A stretch of 64,000 nucleotides of DNA from contig PIVY01000005.1 in assembly GCA_003353795.1 (NCBI GenBank), forward strand, positions 1-64,000. Direction: 5' to 3'. Shown piece by piece: positions 44,878-57,964 of this stretch; the stretch's first letter is position 1; each line of letters opens with the position of its first letter. The position numbers and the translations under genes were made by a program. Source of the stretch: a bacterium. GTDB taxonomy: Bacteria; Krumholzibacteriota; Krumholzibacteriia; LZORAL124-64-63. The notes below the pieces were generated by a model that had not been told where the DNA came from, did not search any database, and saw only the letters and a program-made list of their open reading frames with translations.

Positions 44878-47800
44878 ATGATCCAGATCACCGCACGACG
44901 AGCGAGCATGCTCGTCGTTCTCGTGTTCCTGTCTCTCTCCGGCACGGCCCTGGCGACGGCGCCGTACGTGGGCCAGGCCGACGTCCATGGCGACCGCATC
45001 GTGTTCACCGCCGAGGACGACCTATGGTCCTGCGATCTGGCCGGGCAGGACGTGCGTCGGTTGACCTCGTTCATCGGGACGGAGTACTTCCCGCACATCT
45101 CGCCGGACGGCCGCTGGATCGCGTTCACCGGCGAGTATGACGGGAATCGCGACGTCTACTTGATCCCCGTCGGTGGCGGTGAACCGCAGCGGCTCACCTG
45201 GCACCCCGGCGGCGACGAGGTGATCGGCTGGCACCCCGACGGCGAGACCGTGATCCTGCGCAGTCGCCGCCACGATCCTCACGGCGACTGGCACCTCTTC
45301 ACCATCGATCACCAGGGCGGCGATCTTGCGGAATTGCCATTGGGCTTCGCCGCGCGCCTCGACGTCGATCCCGCCAGTGGTCGCTGGGCGTTCAACCGAA
45401 CCGAACGCGAGCGTCGGCCGTGGAAGCGCTACCGCGGCGGCTGGGCCACACAGATCTGGGTCGGCGATCCCGGGCAGAACGACTTTGTCCAGATCACCGA
45501 ATTCGCTGGCATGGACGCGTTTCCCATGTGGCACGACGGGCAACTCGTGTTTCTCAGCGATCAGGGCGGCACCGCCAATCTCTGGAGCATGGCCGCCGAT
45601 GGTTCGGCTCGCACTCAGCTGACCGACTTCGACGAGTGGGACGTGCGCTGGCCGGCCATGGGACCGGGCGGCCTGGTCGTCTTCACCGCCGGCGCCGATC
45701 TGCAACTGCTCGATCTGGCCGACGGCCACACCACCCGCGTGGAGGTGGACCTGCCCAGCGACCATGTGCTCACTCGCACGCGCTACCGGGCCTCCGGCCG
45801 CGACCTCCAGGACTTCGATCTCTCGCCCGACGGCGAACGCCTGATGGTGAGCGTGCGTGGCGAACTGTTCTCCGTGCCCGTCAAGGAGGGCGTGACCCTG
45901 CCGATCACCCGCGGCACCGGCGCCCGCGAGCGCGGCGCGGCCTATGGCCACGAGGGCAAGCAGGTCTTCTACTGGACCGACGCCGAGCGCGAGGACGCGT
46001 TGCATCGCAAGGACGCCTGGGGTCGCGACGATGCCGAGACCGTGCGCGGCGCGAAGAAGGACGACTGGTTCGGCAGCCTGATTCCGTCGCCCGACGGCAA
46101 GTGGCTGGCCTGGACCGACAGCGAGTACGGCCTGCGGATCATGAAGACCGAGGGCGGCGGCGAACGCGAGGTGGATCGCGGAACCATGGGCCCATTGCGC
46201 AGCCTGACCTGGAGCCCCGACGGCCGCTGGCTGGCCTATGTCAAGAACCTGTCCAACGACTATGGCTCCATCTTCATCTACGATACCCAGGAACAGGTGA
46301 CCCACGAGGTCACCGGCCGCTGGGCCCGCGATCACAGCCCGGCCTGGGATCCCGACGGACGCTTCCTCTACTTCGTGTCCGCACGCGCGCAGAATCCGGT
46401 GCTCGGGCAGACGGACATGCAAAACGTGGAGGTCCGCAACGAGAAGCTATACGCCATGCTGCTGCGGCCCGACGTGGACCATCCGCTGCGCCACGAGGCG
46501 GGGTTGCCGCCCGCGGTGGATGAGGAGAAGGACGACGACGCCGAGAAGAATGACGAGGAGAAGTCCGACGACGAGGAAGAGGATGACGCGCTCGACCCCG
46601 TGGAGATCGAGTTCGCGGGCCTGGCCGACCGCGTGGTCGAGCTCAAGACCAAGCGCGGCAACTACGGCGCCCTCGCCGCCACCAAATCCCACGTGTTCTA
46701 CGTGAAGGTGCCCATCATGGGCATGGCCGAGGGGCCCGATTTCTTCCAGGAAGGCGAGCCCATCGCCGTGCTCATGGCCTACAGCCTGGAAGACCGGGAA
46801 TCCGAGACCTTCGCCGCCGGAATCACCGCCTACGACCTCGAACCCGAGGCCGGCAAGGTGGCTGTGATGAAGCAGCGTGGGCAGATCTTCGTGGTGGATG
46901 CCGGCTCGCCCCCCGGCGAGGCGCTGGCCAAGGGCAAGGTCGATCTCTCGGACGCCGTGGTGGAGCTGGATCCGCGTGCGGAGTGGGAGCAGGTCTACTG
47001 GGAGGCCTGGCGGCAGATGCGCGCCTTCTACTGGGACCCCGACATGGGCGGTCTCGACTGGAAGAAGATCGGCGATCGGTACGCGGACCTGCTGCCCCGC
47101 CTGACCAGCCGCGGTGACCTTGCCGACCTCATCGGCCAGCTCTACGGCGAGGTTTCCACCAGCCACAGCTACGTGTTCGGCGGCGACCCGGGCAAGAGCG
47201 TGCCCCGCGTGGCCACCGGCCAGCTGGGAGCGGATCTGGTGCGCGACGGCGATGCCTACCGCATCGAGCGGATCATCCGCGGCGACGCGGCTGATCGTGT
47301 GCGCTCGCCCCTCGACGAACCCGGTGTGGACGCCGACGAGGGCGACTTCATCCTCGCCGTCAACGGCCGCGCAGTGAAGGCCGCGCCCAATCTGCACGCC
47401 CTGCTCGCCGGCTTCGCGGGCAAGCAGGTGCTGATGACCGTGGCCGACGATCGCGGCGGCGAGAACAGTCGCGAGATCCTGGTGACGCCCATGCGCAGCG
47501 AGCGCAGCCTGCGTTACGCCGACTGGGTCCGCGGCAATCGCGAGTACGTGCTCGAGAAGACCGGCGGCAAGATCGGCTACATCCACGTGCCGGACATGGG
47601 CACCACCGGCATGGTGGCATTCAACAAGTGGTTCTACCCGCAGCTCGATCTCGAGGGCATGGTGGTCGATACGCGCTGGAACGGCGGCGGCTTCGTGAGC
47701 CAGATGCTCGTGGAACGGTTGCGCCGACCCGTGCTGGCCTACGATCGCGTGCGTGGTGGGTCGGTTTCTACGTATCCCTACAGGGTGCTCAATGGACCAT

Positions 47801-48195
47801 TCGTGGTGCTGACCAACGAGATGGCTGGCAGCGACGGCGACATCTTCCCGCAGGCCATTCAGCTCGAGGGTCTAGCCCCGGTGATCGGCATGCGGAGCTG
47901 GGGCGGCGTGGTGGGGATCAACGCCATCCGCCCGCTGCAGGACGGCGGTCTGGTGACCCAGCCGGTGGCCGCGTGGTGGGACGAGCAGAAGGGCTGGGGC
48001 GTGGAGAACCACGGTGTCGACCCCGACATCGAGGTGCAGAACCTGCCCCAGGATCTCGCCACGGGCACGGACGCGCAGCTGGATCGCGGCATCGCCGAGG
48101 TGCTGAAGCTGCACGCGGCCGAGCCGCCCAGCGAGCCCGACTTCGGGCCGGTGCCGCCGCGGACCCGCAAGTCGTATCGGGATGAATTGAAGTAG
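44878..48195 (+). CDS. Tricorn-type protease (beta-propellers, PDZ, S41 catalytic domain)
   Basis: TSFIGTEYFPHISPDGRWIAFTGEYDGNRDVYLIPVGGGEPQRLTWHPG; PDZ DEGDFILAVNGRAVKAAPNLHALLAG; S41 GGKIGYIHVPDMGTTGMVAFNKWFYPQLDLEGMVVDTRWNGGGFVSQMLVERL..NEMAGSDGDIFPQAI. Confidence 0.94.
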   Translation: MIQITARRASMLVVLVFLSLSGTALATAPYVGQADVHGDRIVFTAEDDLWSCDLAGQDVRRLTSFIGTEYFPHISPDGRWIAFTGEYDGNRDVYLIPVGGGEPQRLTWHPGGDEVIGWHPDGETVILRSRRHDPHGDWHLFTIDHQGGDLAELPLGFAARLDVDPASGRWAFNRTERERRPWKRYRGGWATQIWVGDPGQNDFVQITEFAGMDAFPMWHDGQLVFLSDQGGTANLWSMAADGSARTQLTDFDEWDVRWPAMGPGGLVVFTAGADLQLLDLADGHTTRVEVDLPSDHVLTRTRYRASGRDLQDFDLSPDGERLMVSVRGELFSVPVKEGVTLPITRGTGARERGAAYGHEGKQVFYWTDAEREDALHRKDAWGRDDAETVRGAKKDDWFGSLIPSPDGKWLAWTDSEYGLRIMKTEGGGEREVDRGTMGPLRSLTWSPDGRWLAYVKNLSNDYGSIFIYDTQEQVTHEVTGRWARDHSPAWDPDGRFLYFVSARAQNPVLGQTDMQNVEVRNEKLYAMLLRPDVDHPLRHEAGLPPAVDEEKDDDAEKNDEEKSDDEEEDDALDPVEIEFAGLADRVVELKTKRGNYGALAATKSHVFYVKVPIMGMAEGPDFFQEGEPIAVLMAYSLEDRESETFAAGITAYDLEPEAGKVAVMKQRGQIFVVDAGSPPGEALAKGKVDLSDAVVELDPRAEWEQVYWEAWRQMRAFYWDPDMGGLDWKKIGDRYADLLPRLTSRGDLADLIGQLYGEVSTSHSYVFGGDPGKSVPRVATGQLGADLVRDGDAYRIERIIRGDAADRVRSPLDEPGVDADEGDFILAVNGRAVKAAPNLHALLAGFAGKQVLMTVADDRGGENSREILVTPMRSERSLRYADWVRGNREYVLEKTGGKIGYIHVPDMGTTGMVAFNKWFYPQLDLEGMVVDTRWNGGGFVSQMLVERLRRPVLAYDRVRGGSVSTYPYRVLNGPFVVLTNEMAGSDGDIFPQAIQLEGLAPVIGMRSWGGVVGINAIRPLQDGGLVTQPVAAWWDEQKGWGVENHGVDPDIEVQNLPQDLATGTDAQLDRGIAEVLKLHAAEPPSEPDFGPVPPRTRKSYRDELK

Positions 48196-48262: not shown

Positions 48263-48835
48263 TCAGCCGACCATCGCCGCCCAGCGCTCCAGCAACGACT
48301 GCGCCAGCAACTGCGCCGCCGGCGTCGCGAACTGCCGCCCCTTGTAGGCCTCGCGCACCTCGTCGAGTCGGCGGTTGCCGCCGGACTCGCGGTAGACCCA
48401 CGCCTGGATCAGGAACTCGAGCCGGTCGGCATCGCGGACGAGCTTCGCCTCGGGGCCGCGCTCGTGCTTGTAGTCGTCCATGAGGGCGGTCCAGTTCGGC
48501 GCCATCGGCAGGCCGTGGAGGATGGCGGACAGGGCCTTGGTCTCGGCCTCCTCCTTGGCGCCCTCGGGGAGGTAGGTGTTGGCCATGCGGGGGATGTCGG
48601 AGACCTCGCTCTCGGCCAGGTCGTGCAGGACGGCCATGGAGAGGAGGCGACCGCGGTCGAGATCCACGTCGGACATCTCGGCGAGTACGAGGGCGACTAC
48701 GGCCGTGCCCCAGCTGTGGGCCGCCACGTTCTCGGGCAGGTCGACCTGGCGCAGGTACCAGCCGGTGCGGGGGGTGGTCTTCAGGACGTTGGCCTGCAGG
48801 AGCAGGTCGAGCCAGCGGGTCGGGTCGGCGGGCAT
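48263..48835 (-). CDS. HD-domain phosphohydrolase (YfbR-like)
   Basis: VDLPENVAAHSWGTAVVALVLAEM..LLSMAVLHDLAESEVSDIPRM (H...HD)..RDADRLEFLIQAW. Confidence 0.85.
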   Translation of the reverse strand: MPADPTRWLDLLLQANVLKTTPRTGWYLRQVDLPENVAAHSWGTAVVALVLAEMSDVDLDRGRLLSMAVLHDLAESEVSDIPRMANTYLPEGAKEEAETKALSAILHGLPMAPNWTALMDDYKHERGPEAKLVRDADRLEFLIQAWVYRESGGNRRLDEVREAYKGRQFATPAAQLLAQSLLERWAAMVG

Positions 48836-48913
48836 GAAGCGGCCTCCGGTTGGGGTGGCGAGCGTGAGCGTAGGATAGCCGCTCACGCCCGCCGTGACCA
48901 CCCGAGCCGCGAG

Positions 48914-50458
48914 TCAGGGTACGACCACCGATTGCCGGCGGAAATGGTACACGTCGCCTCGATAGGCCGGGCAAGCCGTGGGCTCGCTGGCGCCGCGCGC
49001 CCGCGCGCTCGCCGCAAACTCGAGGTACAGGTACTCGCGACCGCCGGCGTGGGTCGGGAACCAGGCCGCGGGTTTCAGGCGATCCTGGGTGTACTGGGTG
49101 CCGTCCTCCAGGGGACACTGGCCGTGGGCATGGCAACCGGTGACATTGACGAACGCCAGATCCACGGATTCGGTCAGCCCCGCGAGGTGGTCGATCTCGG
49201 CGGTGAATCCCGTTCGTTCATCGTCGCGCCAGCCGGCATGGTCGCCTGCGTGGTAGACGGTGACGCCGTCCACGGTCACCAGGAATCCGACGCCGGCATC
49301 GTTGGAGGCGATGGTGGCGACGGATAGGTCGCCGAAATCCCGCTCCGTTCGTGGCGGCATGTGGGAATAGGCGGGACCGGCGTACGACCGACCGCCATCA
49401 GCGTCAGGCGCGAACCCGTAGACGTAATTCACGGTGGGCAGACGGTCGGCCAGGGCGTAGATCGCCGGGTCGAAATGGTCCCGATGGGCGTGGGTCACGA
49501 AGATCCAGACATTCTGGTTTCGCAGTTCGTCGGCCGTGAGCCGCCCGTTGGCGAGCCCGGGATGTGCGGGATCGTAGCTGTCCGGAACGTAGTCGAAGAT
49601 GAGCACGTGCTGCTGCGTCTTGATGGCCCAGCCGCAGTGGCCAAGGTGCCAGAGTACGGCTTCGCCGGGGTCCAGCTGGCGGTCCAGCCACTGTCGCGTC
49701 GTAGTGGGATCGACACCATCGGCACCGGTCCCGCCGGCTGCGCTCAATGCCGCCGCCGTGTCGGAGTGCCCGTATCGTCGCGCCAGGTCCAGGGGGCTGC
49801 GCCCCGTGGGATCCATGGCCATGAGGTCGGCGCCGGCGTCGATCAGCAGGGCGACCATGTCCGCGCGCCCGTTGGCGGCGGCCCAGCAGATCACCGGAGC
49901 GCCGCCGATCAATCGGGTCTGGGGATCGGCGCCGTGACGCAGCAGGAACTCGGCCATGTCGGCACGGTCGCGGGCGACGGCCATGGCCAGCGGAGGCAGG
50001 CCGCCGGGGCCGTCCGCGTCGATGGGGGCGCCCTGCACCACGAGCCGCTCGACGATCGGCAGGCTGCCAGAGCGTACCGCCATGCCCACCGCCCGGGATC
50101 CCAGGTGGCGGTGGCTGGCGCCGGCGTCGAGCAGGTCGCAGGCAGACCTGTTGCGACCGCGGTCCATGGCGATGAACAGCGGCGTCTGGCCGGCCCGATT
50201 CGTTGGGTCGGGCGCCGCGCCGGTATCGATCAGGAAGCGGACCGTCGCACCACGATTCGCGATGACGGCGTGGTGGAGTGGAGTCTGCCCTTGCCCGTCG
50301 GCGAGATCGACCGACGAGGGATCCTCGACTATGAGCACGCGTATCGCCTCGAGATCGCCTTGCCGCGCCGCGTCGTGAATCGGCGCCGCCTGGACCGTTG
50401 CGCCCGCGAGGATCACGATGGTGACCAGGGCGCCGGAAATGGAACTTCTTCTGAACAT
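48914..50458 (-). CDS. Secreted ankyrin-repeat / metallo-beta-lactamase-fold fusion protein
   Basis: Signal peptide; ANK repeats QGQTPLHHAVIANRGATVRFLIDTGAAPDP etc.; MBL motif VTHAHRDHFDPAIYAL, VYHAGDHAGW. Confidence 0.87.
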   Translation of the reverse strand: MFRRSSISGALVTIVILAGATVQAAPIHDAARQGDLEAIRVLIVEDPSSVDLADGQGQTPLHHAVIANRGATVRFLIDTGAAPDPTNRAGQTPLFIAMDRGRNRSACDLLDAGASHRHLGSRAVGMAVRSGSLPIVERLVVQGAPIDADGPGGLPPLAMAVARDRADMAEFLLRHGADPQTRLIGGAPVICWAAANGRADMVALLIDAGADLMAMDPTGRSPLDLARRYGHSDTAAALSAAGGTGADGVDPTTTRQWLDRQLDPGEAVLWHLGHCGWAIKTQQHVLIFDYVPDSYDPAHPGLANGRLTADELRNQNVWIFVTHAHRDHFDPAIYALADRLPTVNYVYGFAPDADGGRSYAGPAYSHMPPRTERDFGDLSVATIASNDAGVGFLVTVDGVTVYHAGDHAGWRDDERTGFTAEIDHLAGLTESVDLAFVNVTGCHAHGQCPLEDGTQYTQDRLKPAAWFPTHAGGREYLYLEFAASARARGASEPTACPAYRGDVYHFRRQSVVVP

Positions 50459-50472
50459 GATTCGATCTCCTC

Positions 50473-51732
50473 TCAGCGGTTGATCCGGTAGCAGACGATT
50501 TCCGGGGGATCCGGTTCACCGAACTCGTCGTCCAGTCCGCCCTGGCCGCCGCCGACGGTTGTGCGCATGGCGTCCACGAAGCCGTGCACCACCACGAGCA
50601 GGTCCTGCCCCACGCGGAAGACGCCGTCGTAGAGGGCGTTGCCGGCCACGGGCACGACGACCTGGCGCTGGAAGTGTCCACTCGGGTCGAAGACGTCGAA
50701 GGCCAGGAGCCCGTGGTGATCCCGGCCGATCTCGGCGCTGCGACCATGCCGGACCCAGAGTTCACCGTCGCCAGTGACCTGCAGGCCGCGGTGATACCAG
50801 GCGATCACGGCCTCGTTGGCGCACATCTCGTAGCGGATGGAGAAGGGGAACGTGCGGAACCGGCGGTCGATCAGGGCCTGGATACGGTCAGCCTCGGCCG
50901 GCGTCCGGACCCGGGGCGTGAACTCGCGCTCGATCACCCTGGCGACCGAGCCGTCGGGTTCGAAGACCGTGATCTCGTACTCGTCGCGGTCGGCCAGCGC
51001 GTAGACCCGTCCGTCGGGGCCGACGTCGAAGCTGTAGAGGAAGTCGATCAGGGCCGCCTTCTCGGAGAAGACGTAGTCGTTGTGATAGTCGACATGGCGG
51101 TTGCTCTCGAGGTAACGGACGATCTCGTCGCCGTTCGGGTCGATAGCCGCGAGTGTGGAGCTTGCCGTGTGAGTGCCGGTGTCCTCGTCCTGGACGTTGA
51201 GGACGCCGGCCATGACCAGCCGTTCGCCGCGGCAGGCTGCAGTGGCGAGCATGCGGCCGGGCTCGCGAGGAACCAGAGTGGTTCCGGGATTCCCCGTTCG
51301 GTCGATGGTGATCAGGGCCGCAGGGAACCGGTTGACGACGCCCAGCGATCCGTCCGCCAACTGCACGAGATCACTGGCCCGGCGCACTTCGCCGGGGCCG
51401 TCGCCCTCACCGAATACGGTGCGCTCCAGGTTCCCGTCCGGCGAGTAGACGTGGACCTGCTGGAGCTGCGAATCGAGCACGTAGAGACGGCCGCTGTCGT
51501 CGGCGAGTACGCGGGTGATCAGTCCGAAGAATGCGTCCTCGTCGTCGGCGCCGCCGGCACGCCAGATCTCCTCGATGTCGAGCACCTGCACGCCACCGGG
51601 CGGAACGGCGGGATTGCAGACGTGGGGGACGCCGTCGATGGGGACGATCTGTCCCGCGATCGCGATGTTGCAAATGACGATGGGAATGACGAGACACAGG
51701 TGGCGAACGGGTCGCCCGGATGATCGGAGCAT
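50473..51732 (-). CDS. 6-bladed beta-propeller (NHL-like) protein
   Basis: ITRVLADDSGRLYVLDSQLQQVHVYSPDGNLERTVFGEGDGPGEVRRASDLVQLADGSLGVVNRFPA. Confidence 0.8.
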   Translation of the reverse strand: MLRSSGRPVRHLCLVIPIVICNIAIAGQIVPIDGVPHVCNPAVPPGGVQVLDIEEIWRAGGADDEDAFFGLITRVLADDSGRLYVLDSQLQQVHVYSPDGNLERTVFGEGDGPGEVRRASDLVQLADGSLGVVNRFPAALITIDRTGNPGTTLVPREPGRMLATAACRGERLVMAGVLNVQDEDTGTHTASSTLAAIDPNGDEIVRYLESNRHVDYHNDYVFSEKAALIDFLYSFDVGPDGRVYALADRDEYEITVFEPDGSVARVIEREFTPRVRTPAEADRIQALIDRRFRTFPFSIRYEMCANEAVIAWYHRGLQVTGDGELWVRHGRSAEIGRDHHGLLAFDVFDPSGHFQRQVVVPVAGNALYDGVFRVGQDLLVVVHGFVDAMRTTVGGGQGGLDDEFGEPDPPEIVCYRINR

Positions 51733-51805
51733 GGGACACCTCGTGGCGGGGAAGGACGCGACCGGCGCTGCCGACGCACCACGGGGATCTGGCGGCGGCA
51801 GGATC

Positions 51806-51851
51806 AGTATCGGTAAAAAATTACCGTACTGTCAATAAGTTTTTACCGGTA
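51806..51851 (-). promoter_or_regulatory. Promoter TTGACA-N18-GATACT with candidate BlaI-type operators CGGTAATTTTTTACCG (spacer) and TACCGGTAAAA (upstream)
   Basis: tgtcaa 51830-51835; agtatc 51806-51811; dyad 51811-51826; ttttaccggta 51841-51851. Confidence 0.6.
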
Positions 51852-53497
51852 GGCCCGGGTCGGGGTCGCAGCTCGGCTTCGGCGCCGGCAGCTATGAGGG
51901 CGGCGATGGTGGAGTCGTGATGTCCCCAGCGCGCGAAGTGGAGGGGGGTGTCTCCGTCGGTGCTGCGGGCGTCGGGGTCGAGCCCTGCGGCGAGAAATCG
52001 GTGGACGAGTTCCGTGTCGCCGATGCGCGCGGCGGCGTGCAGCATGGTCCAGCCGTGGTATCCGCGGACCTGGATGTCGGCGCCGCCGTCCAGGAGGGCC
52101 CTGGCGACGGATCGCTTCCCGCGGTCGAGGGCGCTGAAGAGCGGCGTCAGGCCGTTGGCGTTGCGGACGTCGGGGTCGGCTCCCCGGGCCAGGAGGTCGG
52201 CGACCAGGGCGGCGTGCCCGCCCCAGGAGGCCTGGGCGAGGGGAGTCATGCCCTTGAAGTCGCGGTGTTCCAGCTGGGAGGGCATCGTATCGAGCAGGGC
52301 TGTGATCCCGGCGTGATCGCCTCGCAGGGCCATGACGTGGATGTCACCAGAGACCGGCGCGGGCTCGGACGATTCGGCGACCGGTGTCTGGGGCTGGGGC
52401 CCGACCGCGGTCCCGGACACGATGACCTCCGGCTGTGATAGCCGAACGGCACTGGCGGGAATGACGGCCACGGCCAGCAGGGCCAGCAGGCCCGCCGTGA
52501 CGAACCGGTACCGGCGGACCGTCAGCGTAGCCGGGTGCCCGAGCAGATGGCGAAGCCGAACCTCGATGTCGGCGGCACGGGCCAGTCCCGGTGTCGGGGC
52601 GGGCTCGCGCGCAAGGGCGATGCGCTCGGCCATGGACAGCAGGAGGTGCGCATAGCCGCGGCGGTCGCCACTGCTCCGCCAGGCGGCCTCGTCGCAGGCC
52701 ATCTCCAGCGTCAAGGCCGCCCTCCGTGCGGCATGCCAGGCCAGCGGTTGGTACCAGAACACGGCGCAGACCAGTTCGGCCAGGACCAGTCGGAGGTAGT
52801 CGTTGCGTCGGACGTGCGCCAGCTCGTGTTGCACGACGGGGCGCAAGGCTTCGGCGGGCCAGTGGACCGCATCGGCGGGCAGGACGAGGCGGGGTCGCAT
52901 GACGCCGGCCACGAACGGGATCACGATACGATGGGACAGGTGCAAGTCCGGAGCCCGGCCGCGATCGGCGCCGAGGCCGAGAGCGGCGACGAATTCGGGT
53001 GGTGCGGGGGACGCCCTCAGGGCCAGCCACATGCCGCCGGCGAGCCGACTGGCGCTGCGGATCAGCAGGGCGACGACACCGCCCATCCAGATCATGGTCA
53101 GAGCCTGCCACCACGGCCATGCCGGCCCGACTGCACGGGTCGATTCCAATTCCGCCTCGATTCCGGCGGGACTGTTCTGGTGACCGAAGGGCTGAGTGAC
53201 CCGGGAGATCTCGGAAGTGGGCTCTGCGGTCATGGTCTGCACGGACAGGGGCGTCACCTCGACCAGCGGTGCTACCAGGCGCGGCGTTACCAGGCCCATA
53301 GCGGGCAGGATCAGCAGGCAACAGAAGGTCACCGTCCAGATGCGACTGCGCAGTTCGGGGCGAGCGTGCCGCGCGATCCAGGTCAACGCGTGGGCGGCCA
53401 TGAGGAGCACGGTTCCCTTGAGCGCGAGGTCCAGGCCGAAGCGAAGCCAGGTCGCGGCTTCGGGTCCTGCTAACTGTCCGCTCAAGATCTGGTCCAT
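51821..53497 (-). CDS. BlaR1-like M56 family metallopeptidase with C-terminal ankyrin repeats
   Basis: TM region; AVHWPAEALRPVVQHELAHVRRNDYLRLVLAELVCAVFWYQPLAW (HExxH); ANK DFKGMTPLAQASWGGHAALVADLLARGADPDVRNANGLTPLFSALDRGKRSVARALLDGGADIQ; start MDQILSGQLAG 2 bp from the BlaI stop. Confidence 0.88.
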   Translation of the reverse strand: MDQILSGQLAGPEAATWLRFGLDLALKGTVLLMAAHALTWIARHARPELRSRIWTVTFCCLLILPAMGLVTPRLVAPLVEVTPLSVQTMTAEPTSEISRVTQPFGHQNSPAGIEAELESTRAVGPAWPWWQALTMIWMGGVVALLIRSASRLAGGMWLALRASPAPPEFVAALGLGADRGRAPDLHLSHRIVIPFVAGVMRPRLVLPADAVHWPAEALRPVVQHELAHVRRNDYLRLVLAELVCAVFWYQPLAWHAARRAALTLEMACDEAAWRSSGDRRGYAHLLLSMAERIALAREPAPTPGLARAADIEVRLRHLLGHPATLTVRRYRFVTAGLLALLAVAVIPASAVRLSQPEVIVSGTAVGPQPQTPVAESSEPAPVSGDIHVMALRGDHAGITALLDTMPSQLEHRDFKGMTPLAQASWGGHAALVADLLARGADPDVRNANGLTPLFSALDRGKRSVARALLDGGADIQVRGYHGWTMLHAAARIGDTELVHRFLAAGLDPDARSTDGDTPLHFARWGHHDSTIAALIAAGAEAELRPRPGPTGKNLLTVR

Positions 53498-53499
53498 GG

Positions 53500-53916
53500 C
53501 TAATCCGCCTCGTTCGGCTCGTCGTCTTCGGCGGTGTCGATGAGGCCTCGTAGCCGGGCCACGTCCTCGGGCGAAAGCCGGTCCTTGTGCGTGTCGAGCA
53601 GGGCGGCCACGAGCATCCGGGGCGACCCGTCGAAGAAGTTGTCGACAACGTCGGTGAGGGCGCTGCGGGCGGCGCGGCCCTGGGTCACGGTCGGTCGATA
53701 GACGCGGCTGTTGCCCACGGTCTTCGCGGTGAGGAAGCCCTTGTCCTCGAGGATGTGACACATGCGCCGGATGGAGTCGGCCGTGGGCGGGTCGGGAATC
53801 ACCGTGAGAATGTCGGCCACGGTGGCTTGCCCGGTGCGGTAGATCGCCTGCATGATCTGGCGTTCGCGGCGGCTGAGCTCGTGCTCGCGGTAAACGCGTT
53901 TCCTGCTCGGGGTCAC
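53500..53916 (-). CDS. BlaI/MecI/CopY family transcriptional repressor
   Basis: LSRRERQIMQAIYRTGQATVADILTVIPDPPTADSIRRMCHILEDKGFLTAKTVGNSRVYRPTVTQGRAARSALTDVVDNFFDGSPRMLVAALLD. Confidence 0.93.
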   Translation of the reverse strand: MTPSRKRVYREHELSRRERQIMQAIYRTGQATVADILTVIPDPPTADSIRRMCHILEDKGFLTAKTVGNSRVYRPTVTQGRAARSALTDVVDNFFDGSPRMLVAALLDTHKDRLSPEDVARLRGLIDTAEDDEPNEAD

Positions 53917-53941
53917 GGGGCGCCTCCGGGGTGAGGGACGG

Positions 53942-53983
53942 TTCTACCGGTAAAATATTCCCGCATCGCGGGCCGAATGTCAA
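53942..53983 (-). promoter_or_regulatory. Promoter of BlaI-like gene: TTGACA (-35) and AT-rich -10 overlapping operator-like TTTTACCGGTAGAA
   Basis: tgtcaa 53978-53983; taccggta palindrome 53945-53952. Confidence 0.55.
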
Positions 53984-54037: not shown

Positions 54038-57000
54038 CTAGTGGCGGAATGCCGCTGCCGGAACCTCCTGGCGCGTGAAGCCGGGGCCGCTCCATTCGAG
54101 CTTCAGATCCCGTCCGCCGAGGTGCTGGAAGAATTCGACGGTGATGGGGTGGAGGCCGGCCTCCAGGGGCGCGTCGCCCCACAGCGCGCTCGAGCCGTGG
54201 AGGCCGTCGTGGTCGGCCACGAGTTGGTCGCCGATCCAGAGGCGGCTGCCGTCGTCGCTGCTGAGCCAGAAGCGATAGACGCCGCGGGCCGGGGCCTCGA
54301 CGTAGCCGATCATGACGACGCCGATGTCTTCCTCGGGGAGGTCGGCGGGGATGGCGATGGTGGCGCTGACCGACTCCAGTGCCGGCGCGAGTTCGGCCCA
54401 GTCGGGGAGGGCTTGCCAGGCGCCGAGGTAGCTGCGGGTGGCGAGGCCGCCGGTGGTGGTCTGCGCCGTCGTGGCGGGCCAGGGGTCGAGGCGGGTGAAG
54501 GTGGCGGTGCGCGCGGTGGCCTCGGGGAAGGGGCCGCGGGCGATCACGCGGAGCTCGGTGGTCTCGGTGAATGTCAGCGGCGCGCCGTCGTAAGGCGCGG
54601 GGGTGCCGCCGTCGCGAGCGAGTTCGATGCGGGTTCCGCGGTTGGGGCTCGTGACCTGCACGGTCAACGAGTCGACGAAGGCCCGGCGCTCGGCGGCGAT
54701 CGTCACGCTCGGGTAGCGCGGCAGGTCGACCAGTTCGGTGGTGGGCTCCAGCAACGCGGCAGGCTCGACGAGACTGGCGGCCAGGATCACGAGGGCGGGA
54801 TCGTCGGGCAGGGTGATGGCGCGGGAGCGGGCGCCGTCGGATCGCGCCACCACGATGTCCACCACGTAGAAATGGGTGAACACGTAGGGCAGCTTGTTAC
54901 CCGCCGGGCCGTGCCGGTGGGTGACGACCCAGCCGATGTCGTTGCGCGCCGTGTAGGCCGGCACCAGATCGCCGGCCTCGTGGACCGTGTCGTCGCCCAG
55001 GAGGCGGCTGTCCCACTGGCCCAGGTAGTCGAGACCGTCGGGGATCCAGCGCTCGTTCGGAATGCCGAGATCATCGGGAAATGCGGCCTCGCGGCCGCCG
55101 GCCGTCGAGCACATCAGCAGGCGGAGGTGGGAGAGGTCGCTGGCCGGCAACGCGATGGTCTGGCCTTCGCAGCGCACCAGGTTGGCAGCTCCCGATTCGC
55201 GGGGACCCGTGGCGTAGTCCACGCGGTCGCGCCGGATCACCGCCGGCACCAGTTCGCCCGGCAGGCTCATGCCGGTGCCGTCGAGGTCGCCGTCGGTCGG
55301 TTCAGCATGGGTGCTCAGGCCGTCGAGGTTCCAGGGGAGCGCCAGCGTCTGCTGGCGGACGGGCTCGCCCCGACGCGGGGCGGGCGGTGCCGCCAGCTTC
55401 AGCGCGAAGGTCCGGGGCTGGTAGGGGCCGAGATCGCAGACCAGGGCGCCACCGCGCAACTCCACCTCGTCGCTGGCGACGATCTGGACCTCGTCGGCCC
55501 GCAGCTCGCGGAACTCGGTGGCCGGGGCAACGGGTGCGACGATGACTCCCGCGGCGCCTACGCCGGAGGTCTCCTGCAGCCGTATCACCAGCCAGTCGCC
55601 CTCCTCGCTCTTCTTGATGGCGCGCACTGCGGCCCGCGGCTGGTCGGGACCGCTCTCGTCGCCCAGGTTCAGCAGCGAGAGGGTGCGTCCCCAGGCGCCC
55701 TCGTGGCGGCCCACCGAGCGGAAAGCCAGCAGGGGCTGGTTGAGGCGATCGGCCTCGCGCACGGCCGCCGTCCGCCACTCGGGGCCGTGGCCCATCATGC
55801 CGATGGTGACACGATGGCGACCGAGGTCCTGGCTCTTCTGGTCGTCGATCCAGCTCCAGTTGCTGTTGACCGCCGGCGTGTGGATCAATGACAGCCGCAT
55901 GGTACCGGGCGCGGGGAAGTCCCAGCCGTGGCGGCCGTCGTTCATGAGGCTGAGGCCGAACTCGCCCGAGGCATCGCTCAGGTCGACCCAGCGCTGGGCC
56001 GGGACCTCGTAGAGCTTCTCCCGGTTGAGGCCGCGGCGAATGGCGCCCAGTCCGAGATCGTAGGTGGCCTGGGTGTCGTGGGCCGTGGTGAAGAAGGCGG
56101 CCTTGAGGAGCGTGGCCTTGGTGGCCCAGTCGATGTCGAGTTGCCAGTCGAGGCGGTCGCCGGCGACCAGCAGGGTCTGGCGGAAGATCGATCCGGCGGC
56201 CTCGTGCTCGAAGGTGAGACGGGCGGCGTCGGCCCCGGTGACCACCGATGTGGGGATGCCACCGAGCGGGACCTCGGCGTAGGGCGCGGCCATGAGGTCG
56301 TCGTAGTCGATCTCCCAGGCGGCCCAGTTGCGCGGCTCATCGTGGAGCAGTTGCAGACGCGGCGGCGCGGACACGAGTTCATGGCCGGTCTGCTTGTCGA
56401 TCAGGGACTGGGGACCGCCTGCATCCAGGCGCAGACGGTAGCGGTCGGTCTCGAGGATGCCGGTCTCCGGGTTCCAGCCCTGATTCGCCGGGGGTTCGTA
56501 AGGCGCCAGGATCTTGCGGACCTCGTAGACGGCGACGCCGTTGGCCGGGACGGTCGCGACGAAGGCCCAGCGATCGAGGGGGTGGACCTTGCGGTCGGGA
56601 TCCGAGGCCCAGCGGACCAGGGGCATTTCACGGCCCTGCGGATCGAGGACCTGGAAACCGATGTCGACACCCGAGCTGAACGGCGAGGGCTCGCTCCCGT
56701 GAACGGTCACCAGTTCGGTGCGCGGAAAGCCCAGCGGGTTGAAGATCACCAGCGGAGTGCCGTCGAAATCCGTGTCCATCTCCGCGAGCACGCCCTCCAG
56801 CGAACTCTCCAGGACCTGCGCAAACTCCTTCTGACTCAATAACATATCATTCCAGCTGAACATGTACGCTTCGGGAATACTGGTCCCCGTCAGGTCATCG
56901 TGGAACCCGTGCCACAGAAACCGCGTCCAGGCCCGCTCCAGCTCCTCGTGCGGGTAATCTCGCGCGCCCATCCACCAGGCGAGCGTCGCCGCCCGCTCGG

Positions 57001-57964
57001 CCGCGTCGGCCAGCACTTCGCAGCGGCGGTTCCAGCGCTTCATGGCGGCTTGCGACGTGTAGCAGCCGGCGCCGTGGCTGGTCATGACCAGCTCCCCGTC
57101 GTACACCGGCAGCGACGCCACCTGTTCCGGGGTGAGCTCGCGATAGATCTGGTCGGCGCCGGCGGAGACCACCTTCACCGGGCCGTCCGACGCGATGCTC
57201 TTCTCGAGCCACTGCACCGAGCCCTCGGTGGGTGCGCCGCCGGTGTCGCCGGTGCCGTAGTACTTGAAGGCGTACGGCGGGCCGCCGGCCGCGACCGTGC
57301 GCTCGATGGCGGCGATGACCGTGGTGTCGCGGGAGACGTCGGCCTCGAGGTCGCTCACGTAGGCGCCGGGATTCACCGCGGCGATGACCTCGCTGCCGTC
57401 CACGCCGCGCCACCGACCGAGGTCGAAGGGTGTGCCGTAGGCCGAGCCCCAGGACAGCTTCTGGGTGGAGAAGCCGGTGAGCCCCGAGTGCGCCATGATC
57501 GACGGCAGCGCGTATCCGAAGCCGAAGCAGTCGGGCAGAAAGACGTCGACACTGCGCTTGCCGAACTCGCGATCGAACCAGCCGTTGCCGTAGAGCGCGT
57601 GGCGGAAGAGCGCCTCGGGCGAGGGCATGTTCACGTCGACGGCGTCGAGCCACGAACCACACACACGCCAGCGGTCCTGGGCGATGTATTCCTTCATGCG
57701 CTCGTAGCGCTCGGGGTAGTACTCCTTGATGAGCTGGTAGCGGAAGGCGCCCTCGAAGTTGAAGACGTAGTCGGGGTACTGGTCGAGGAGCGCGAAGTTG
57801 TCGTCGAGAGTCTTCAGGAGGTACTCGTCGATGGTGTCCTGGATGGTCCAGCGCCACTGGGTGTCGAGGTGGCTGGTGGCGACGGTGTGGACCGTAGGGG
57901 TGGGGTCGGCGGCGAGGGCCGAGAACGCAATCAACATGGCGAGCACGATCAGGATCGGGCGCAC
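54038..57964 (-). CDS. Secreted GH38 alpha-mannosidase-like protein with C-terminal PA14-type domain
   Basis: VHTVATSHLDTQWRWTIQDTIDEYLLKTL, VDVFLPDCFGFGYALPSIMAHSGLTGFSTQKLSWG; C-term GVYRFWLSSDDGSRLWIGDQLVADHDGLHG..LEAGLHPITVEFFQHLGGRDLKLEWSGPG. Confidence 0.9.
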   Translation of the reverse strand: MRPILIVLAMLIAFSALAADPTPTVHTVATSHLDTQWRWTIQDTIDEYLLKTLDDNFALLDQYPDYVFNFEGAFRYQLIKEYYPERYERMKEYIAQDRWRVCGSWLDAVDVNMPSPEALFRHALYGNGWFDREFGKRSVDVFLPDCFGFGYALPSIMAHSGLTGFSTQKLSWGSAYGTPFDLGRWRGVDGSEVIAAVNPGAYVSDLEADVSRDTTVIAAIERTVAAGGPPYAFKYYGTGDTGGAPTEGSVQWLEKSIASDGPVKVVSAGADQIYRELTPEQVASLPVYDGELVMTSHGAGCYTSQAAMKRWNRRCEVLADAAERAATLAWWMGARDYPHEELERAWTRFLWHGFHDDLTGTSIPEAYMFSWNDMLLSQKEFAQVLESSLEGVLAEMDTDFDGTPLVIFNPLGFPRTELVTVHGSEPSPFSSGVDIGFQVLDPQGREMPLVRWASDPDRKVHPLDRWAFVATVPANGVAVYEVRKILAPYEPPANQGWNPETGILETDRYRLRLDAGGPQSLIDKQTGHELVSAPPRLQLLHDEPRNWAAWEIDYDDLMAAPYAEVPLGGIPTSVVTGADAARLTFEHEAAGSIFRQTLLVAGDRLDWQLDIDWATKATLLKAAFFTTAHDTQATYDLGLGAIRRGLNREKLYEVPAQRWVDLSDASGEFGLSLMNDGRHGWDFPAPGTMRLSLIHTPAVNSNWSWIDDQKSQDLGRHRVTIGMMGHGPEWRTAAVREADRLNQPLLAFRSVGRHEGAWGRTLSLLNLGDESGPDQPRAAVRAIKKSEEGDWLVIRLQETSGVGAAGVIVAPVAPATEFRELRADEVQIVASDEVELRGGALVCDLGPYQPRTFALKLAAPPAPRRGEPVRQQTLALPWNLDGLSTHAEPTDGDLDGTGMSLPGELVPAVIRRDRVDYATGPRESGAANLVRCEGQTIALPASDLSHLRLLMCSTAGGREAAFPDDLGIPNERWIPDGLDYLGQWDSRLLGDDTVHEAGDLVPAYTARNDIGWVVTHRHGPAGNKLPYVFTHFYVVDIVVARSDGARSRAITLPDDPALVILAASLVEPAALLEPTTELVDLPRYPSVTIAAERRAFVDSLTVQVTSPNRGTRIELARDGGTPAPYDGAPLTFTETTELRVIARGPFPEATARTATFTRLDPWPATTAQTTTGGLATRSYLGAWQALPDWAELAPALESVSATIAIPADLPEEDIGVVMIGYVEAPARGVYRFWLSSDDGSRLWIGDQLVADHDGLHGSSALWGDAPLEAGLHPITVEFFQHLGGRDLKLEWSGPGFTRQEVPAAAFRH

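Follow-up and report, generated by a model that had tools for sequence, protein, structure and literature searches.

A predicted BlaR1/BlaI-type envelope-sensing module with an ankyrin-repeat sensor in an uncultured Krumholzibacteriota lineage

A four-gene module of a bacterium of an uncultured lineage is interpreted here as an envelope-sensing switch of the BlaR1/BlaI type whose sensor has been swapped (rough probability 0.75). It lies on the minus strand of the window, i.e. the complete 64,000-nucleotide stretch that was analysed, and comprises blaI, m56-ank, propeller and ank-mbl in this order (48914–53916, Table 1). The interpretation builds on the gene identities, the catalytic residues of the M56 protease, a shared and nearly module-specific candidate operator and the recurrence of the arrangement in relatives, all as read from sequence comparisons.

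Table 1. Genes, promoters and candidate operator elements of the module.
Feature	Position	Strand	Remarks
BlaI/MecI-family repressor	53500..53916	-	138 aa, GTG start at 53916
BlaR1-type M56 membrane metallopeptidase with C-terminal ankyrin repeats	51821..53497	-	558 aa, ATG start at 53497
Ankyrin sensor domain of the M56 protein, residues 386-540	51878..52342	-	Pfam Ank and AlphaFold; after TM4; predicted periplasmic
Six-bladed beta-propeller, PF17170/DUF5128 type, predicted exported	50473..51732	-	419 aa
Ankyrin and metallo-beta-lactamase-fold protein (ANK-MBL), predicted exported	48914..50458	-	514 aa
blaI-m56 promoter, TTGACA-N18-AATATT (53983-53954)	53945..53983	-	One of two promoter-like sites
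Candidate operator CGGGAATATTTTACCG	53963-53948	-	In the blaI-m56 promoter; one mismatch to CGGTAA-N4-TTACCG
TTTACCGGTA	53954-53945	-	Overlaps the candidate operator CGGGAATATTTTACCG at the blaI-m56 promoter
propeller/ank-mbl promoter, TTGACA-N18-GATACT	51806..51835	-	Overlaps the m56 stop codon; second promoter-like site
Candidate operator CGGTAATTTTTTACCG	51826-51811	-	Between the -35 and -10 hexamers of the propeller/ank-mbl promoter
Additional operator-like element TACCGGTAAA	51842..51851	-	Upstream of the propeller/ank-mbl -35 box

The encoded proteins

Pfam matches and coordinates confirm the four same-strand genes and the order in which the original prediction had placed them, and the HELAH motif is present. 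The predicted span of 48914–53983 holds for the genes but not for its end. At position 53983 the M56 reading frame has its mechanical TTG start, which coincides with the blaI -35 box. The gene immediately upstream of the module (54038–57964, minus strand) encodes a GH38 alpha-mannosidase that has a signal-like N-terminus and carries a PA14 domain at its C-terminus. An HD_3/YfbR-like HD-domain hydrolase (48263–48901, minus strand) starts 12 bp past ank-mbl and may be co-transcribed. A Tricorn-like S41 protease with a WD40-type propeller, PDZ and Tricorn_C1 (44878–48195, plus strand) reads towards the module.

The repressor matches Penicillinase_R (2.3e-23) over Pfam positions 1–114 of 115, which include the winged helix and the C-terminal dimerisation part. 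A PDB search with the single sequence gave no match, whereas a profile of 17 BlaI relatives matches MecI (1okr, 4e-15) and also BlaI (1sd4). The closest BlaI elsewhere is 53% identical (genome G003). Staphylococcal BlaI and MecI are cleaved at an Asn-Phe site. This dipeptide is not conserved in the window BlaI, which has Ala-Leu at the aligned position; cleavage may occur elsewhere.

The M56 protein matches Peptidase_M56 (2.2e-26) and Ank (1.1e-19) in Pfam, and a profile of the M56 domain matches the BlaR1 cryo-EM chains 8exs and 8exp (7.5e-23). The key residues of BlaR1 are HEXXH, Asp210, EXXXD, Tyr261 and Arg294, and its topology is N-out, C-out (PMC9834060). By alignment, all tested BlaR1 catalytic residues are retained in the window protein: H224, E225 and H228 (HELAH, 224–228), D233, E265-xxx-D269, Y282 and R314 are invariant in 18 M56 proteins of the phylum. 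Hydropathy and charge prediction gives four transmembrane segments with loop charges of 0+/2-, 4+/1-, 3+/6- and 22+/16-. Accordingly, the protease is predicted to lie inside and the ankyrin tail outside (N-out/C-out), i.e. periplasmic and not cytoplasmic, in line with the original prediction. In the AlphaFold model the helices comprise residues 12–41, 47–70, 129–160 and 328–350. The fourth helix is followed by a low-confidence linker and then by an ankyrin solenoid that is modelled with confidence (pLDDT about 93–98 over the repeats). Neither Pfam nor the model places a penicillin-binding sensor domain at the C-terminus, where ankyrin repeats are found instead. The proposal that the BlaR1/BlaI logic is kept while the sensor is replaced is supported by this architecture.

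The propeller exceeds the PF17170 cut-off (26.1 bits against 22.9; 6e-6). Both it and ANK-MBL have hydrophobic N-terminal segments resembling export signals. ANK-MBL matches Ank_2 (5.5e-29) and, as a whole protein, Lactamase_B_3 (1e-4); its MBL domain alone reaches 25.1 bits with Lactamase_B_3 (cut-off 24). Searches of PDB structures were dominated by the ankyrin repeats and returned mostly ankyrin proteins; sequence profiles served to assign the MBL and M56 folds. In the profile comparison, the MBL domain is closest, among proteins of solved structure, to UPF0173/Lactamase_B_3 metal-dependent hydrolases such as TM_1162 (6e-5). Unlike these, the window's domain is predicted to be exported and is fused to ankyrins. 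H25, HxHxDH (74–79), H154, D157 and H221 of the MBL part are invariant in 20 relatives, and the AlphaFold model of ANK-MBL has a pLDDT of 87. The metallo-beta-lactamase fold assigned at first stands as a Lactamase_B_3/UPF0173-like fold, but not as a class-B beta-lactamase.

Ankyrin repeats in both sensor and output had been taken to suggest a shared binding partner. A special kinship of the two ankyrin segments was rejected, as each resembles most ankyrin proteins at least as closely as it resembles the other segment (rank 73 of 101 in one direction, 66 of 102 in the other). Furthermore, M56 proteins adjoining ANK-MBL genes mostly carry other tails (TPR, HEAT or unassigned). A shared partner is therefore not indicated. 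Anti-phage defence was likewise rejected; the PADLOC matches are to generic ankyrin only.

Promoters and the candidate operator

Exactly two sigma-70-like promoters were found in a scan over 6.2 kb (shuffled sequences give 0.5), one before blaI and one before the propeller gene. The dyad CGGTAA-N4-TTACCG is common to both, and its copy at the propeller promoter, CGGTAATTTTTTACCG, is the only exact match in the genome. With one mismatch allowed, the 16-bp dyad occurs at one further place in the window's genome; this site lies inside reading frames and is chance-like. The 10-mer TTTACCGGTA is present on either strand exactly twice in the 5.7-Mb assembly, at 53945–53954 and 51842–51851, compared with six occurrences of a reversed-pattern control.

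In a genome of another genus (G067), ACGGTAATTTTTTACCGAT is identical over 19 bp to the sequence at the corresponding place in the window and is located between an M56-ANK fragment and a propeller, despite divergence of the proteins to 47–55%. Two other matches examined in that genome fall inside reading frames and are chance-like. The promoter of the closest blaI, that of G003, contains CGGTAATATATTACCT, and this blaI, too, drives an M56-ANK gene. A different dyad, GCGCTA-N6-TAGCGG, follows TTGACA in both the mbl and the blaI promoter of G014.

The dyad overlaps the repressor's own promoter and the target promoter, as expected of BlaI/MecI repressors. Since it is shared, nearly module-specific and conserved in G067 and G003, BlaI very probably controls both its own operon and the propeller/ank-mbl operon. 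The earlier assignment of propeller and ANK-MBL as BlaI-controlled output gains support from this nearly unique candidate operator. Classical bla/mec operators differ in sequence from CGGTAA-N4-TTACCG, and the likely operator of the module is new here.

Recurrence in relatives and alternative readings

ANK-MBL proteins are found in 20 of the 80 genomes sampled from the phylum. As anticipated by the original prediction, the genes co-occur in related genomes: BlaI-M56 adjoins ANK-MBL or MBL in six others (G079, G074, G044, G003, G014 and G015), and propellers stand beside blaI or blaI-m56 at five further loci (after M56 twice in G044 and once each in G003 and G005, and flanking blaI in G003). 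The window's genome encodes 18 propellers of the PF17170/DUF5128 type, and any single propeller adjacency is weak evidence given this abundance. Each of the three closest relatives of the window propeller is encoded in the neighbourhood of M56 or BlaI. The shared dyad, together with the adjacency of MBL/ANK-MBL and propeller genes at other loci, supports co-regulation well.

The same composition was found only once more, in G067, with the same gene order and a propeller 55% identical to that of the window. There, BlaI and most of M56 are not assembled and ANK-MBL is truncated: after the propeller it stops at ~70 codons, before an AAA_14/DUF4143 gene (locus L087, 1855–2070). Another contig (L086) ends in an MBL fragment. 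The three genomes of the window's own genus lack the module, and most ANK-MBL genes occur without blaI-m56. A search outside the phylum returned 79 loci (some of them same-phylum records) with many ANK-MBL genes and no adjoining blaI or m56 except at the G079 and G074 loci themselves. Some of the ANK-MBL genes adjoin propellers (Aminicenantes, Delongbacteria and Acidobacteriota). On the M56 tree, the linkage to ANK-MBL corresponds to three changes by parsimony, only one of which is forced, and the tree leaves the number of origins undecided.

G003 and G067 (a fragment) also have M56-ANK fusions, as does G007 on a distant branch. Elsewhere the M56 tails are TPR, HEAT, SnoaL-like, FG-GAP, LamG or possibly TonB_C (0.0015, below the cut-off). 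BlaI-M56 pairs with FG-GAP, LamG, DUF4440/SnoaL or HEAT tails are found at L001 (G000:C126, in the window's own genome), L189, L191 and L063. This variation makes sensor swapping a general theme, with ankyrins as one variant. The propeller, ANK-MBL or both may instead take part in sensing by binding the periplasmic part of M56 and setting its activity, as feedback or co-sensor. This alternative is compatible with the swapped-sensor switch and is considered rather unlikely. Where propellers directly follow M56 proteins with almost no periplasmic tail (L178, L180), a separate sensor would be needed, and two linked ANK-MBL proteins that lack the metal motif could act by binding; the M56 proteins of the window and of L182, however, have tails of their own. 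The two ANK-MBL proteins are encoded beside BlaI-M56 (L064, 7408–8913; L065, 6121–7698) and, having lost HxHxDH, are apparent pseudoenzymes.

These genomes encode many propellers and many ankyrin proteins, and an ordinary BlaI-M56 pair could lie by chance beside an unrelated propeller/ank-mbl operon. This is very improbable, as both promoters carry the same operator, practically nowhere else in the genome, and as operator and gene order are conserved in another genus. Furthermore, the linkage of ANK-MBL to M56 recurs with a rough binomial P of at most 5e-5, assuming 20 M56 genes per 4 Mb.

The MBL part differs between loci. In G015 it belongs to another subfamily (PF00753), which suggests an independent ANK-MBL fusion. 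At L095 (4065–7739), an ankyrin-MBL fusion whose MBL domain is of the PF00753 subfamily comes after BlaI-M56(TPR). The G014 cluster has an ankyrin-free MBL gene ahead of blaI and, in addition, encodes a PF00144 beta-lactamase-family protein. That protein, the BlaI/M56 kinship and the MBL fold would fit a resistance system with a beta-lactam-induced beta-lactamase, a reading that is scarcely credible because the M56 protein has no penicillin-binding sensor, the MBL domain resembles UPF0173/Lactamase_B_3 hydrolases rather than class-B beta-lactamases and the metal motif is lost in two linked homologues, which makes beta-lactam hydrolysis unlikely.

Proposed mechanism and relation to known systems

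In the swapped-sensor switch, BlaI would repress the blaI-m56ank and propeller-ankMBL promoters by binding the CGGTAA-N4-TTACCG dyads, which overlap the -10 box or sit between the -35 and -10 boxes. M56 would be a membrane protease with four TM segments, its gluzincin site facing the cytoplasm and its ankyrin domain the periplasm. The protease would be activated when a periplasmic ligand binds or when such a ligand is lost. By analogy with BlaR1, derepression would proceed via cleavage of BlaI, and the exported propeller and ANK-MBL would then be made and act in the periplasm. Ankyrins are protein-binding scaffolds, so the ligand is most likely a protein or peptide; the best guess is a periplasmic one. 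The first interpretation of the module as a whole is partly supported.

As in BlaR1/BlaI and MecR1/MecI of Staphylococcus aureus and Bacillus licheniformis, a BlaI-family repressor is encoded beside a four-TM M56 gluzincin with the same catalytic residues and an extracytoplasmic (here predicted) C-terminal domain, and promoter dyads precede the repressor operon and the target genes. In contrast to these systems, ankyrin repeats replace the class-D-like penicillin-binding sensor, and the predicted targets are an exported propeller and ANK-MBL instead of a beta-lactamase or PBP2a. The M56 protein of the BlaI/BlaR system of Mycobacterium tuberculosis also lacks a beta-lactam sensor domain (PMC9834060). 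It has no sensor domain at all, whereas the window protein has a fused ankyrin domain. For periplasmic ankyrin proteins such as Pseudomonas aeruginosa AnkB, and for the Leptospira ank-katE operon, an exported ankyrin-repeat protein in an inducible operon is described (PMC7567364, in excerpt); the excerpt reports no MBL fold or BlaI/M56 control, and no catalase neighbour is seen in the window. A literature search of partial coverage on BlaR1, ankyrin and M56 found no joint paper, and an earlier report is possible. A search on BlaI/M56 architectures or alternative sensors returned nothing beyond papers on classical bla/mec or on unrelated subjects.

What is known of BlaR1/BlaI comes almost entirely from its role in antibiotic resistance. 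The module is a concrete, testable case of signalling by this family outside drug resistance and of the readiness with which its sensor is exchanged. It suggests a re-pluggable, more general envelope-sensing role of the circuit. More tentatively, BlaI-M56 of this phylum may be a general one-step protease switch of the envelope, with exchangeable periplasmic sensors (ankyrin, TPR, HEAT, SnoaL-like, FG-GAP and LamG) and exported partners (propeller, ANK-MBL) that recognise proteins and not drugs. If so, the sensing of beta-lactams would be a specialised branch within a wider system for sensing proteins.
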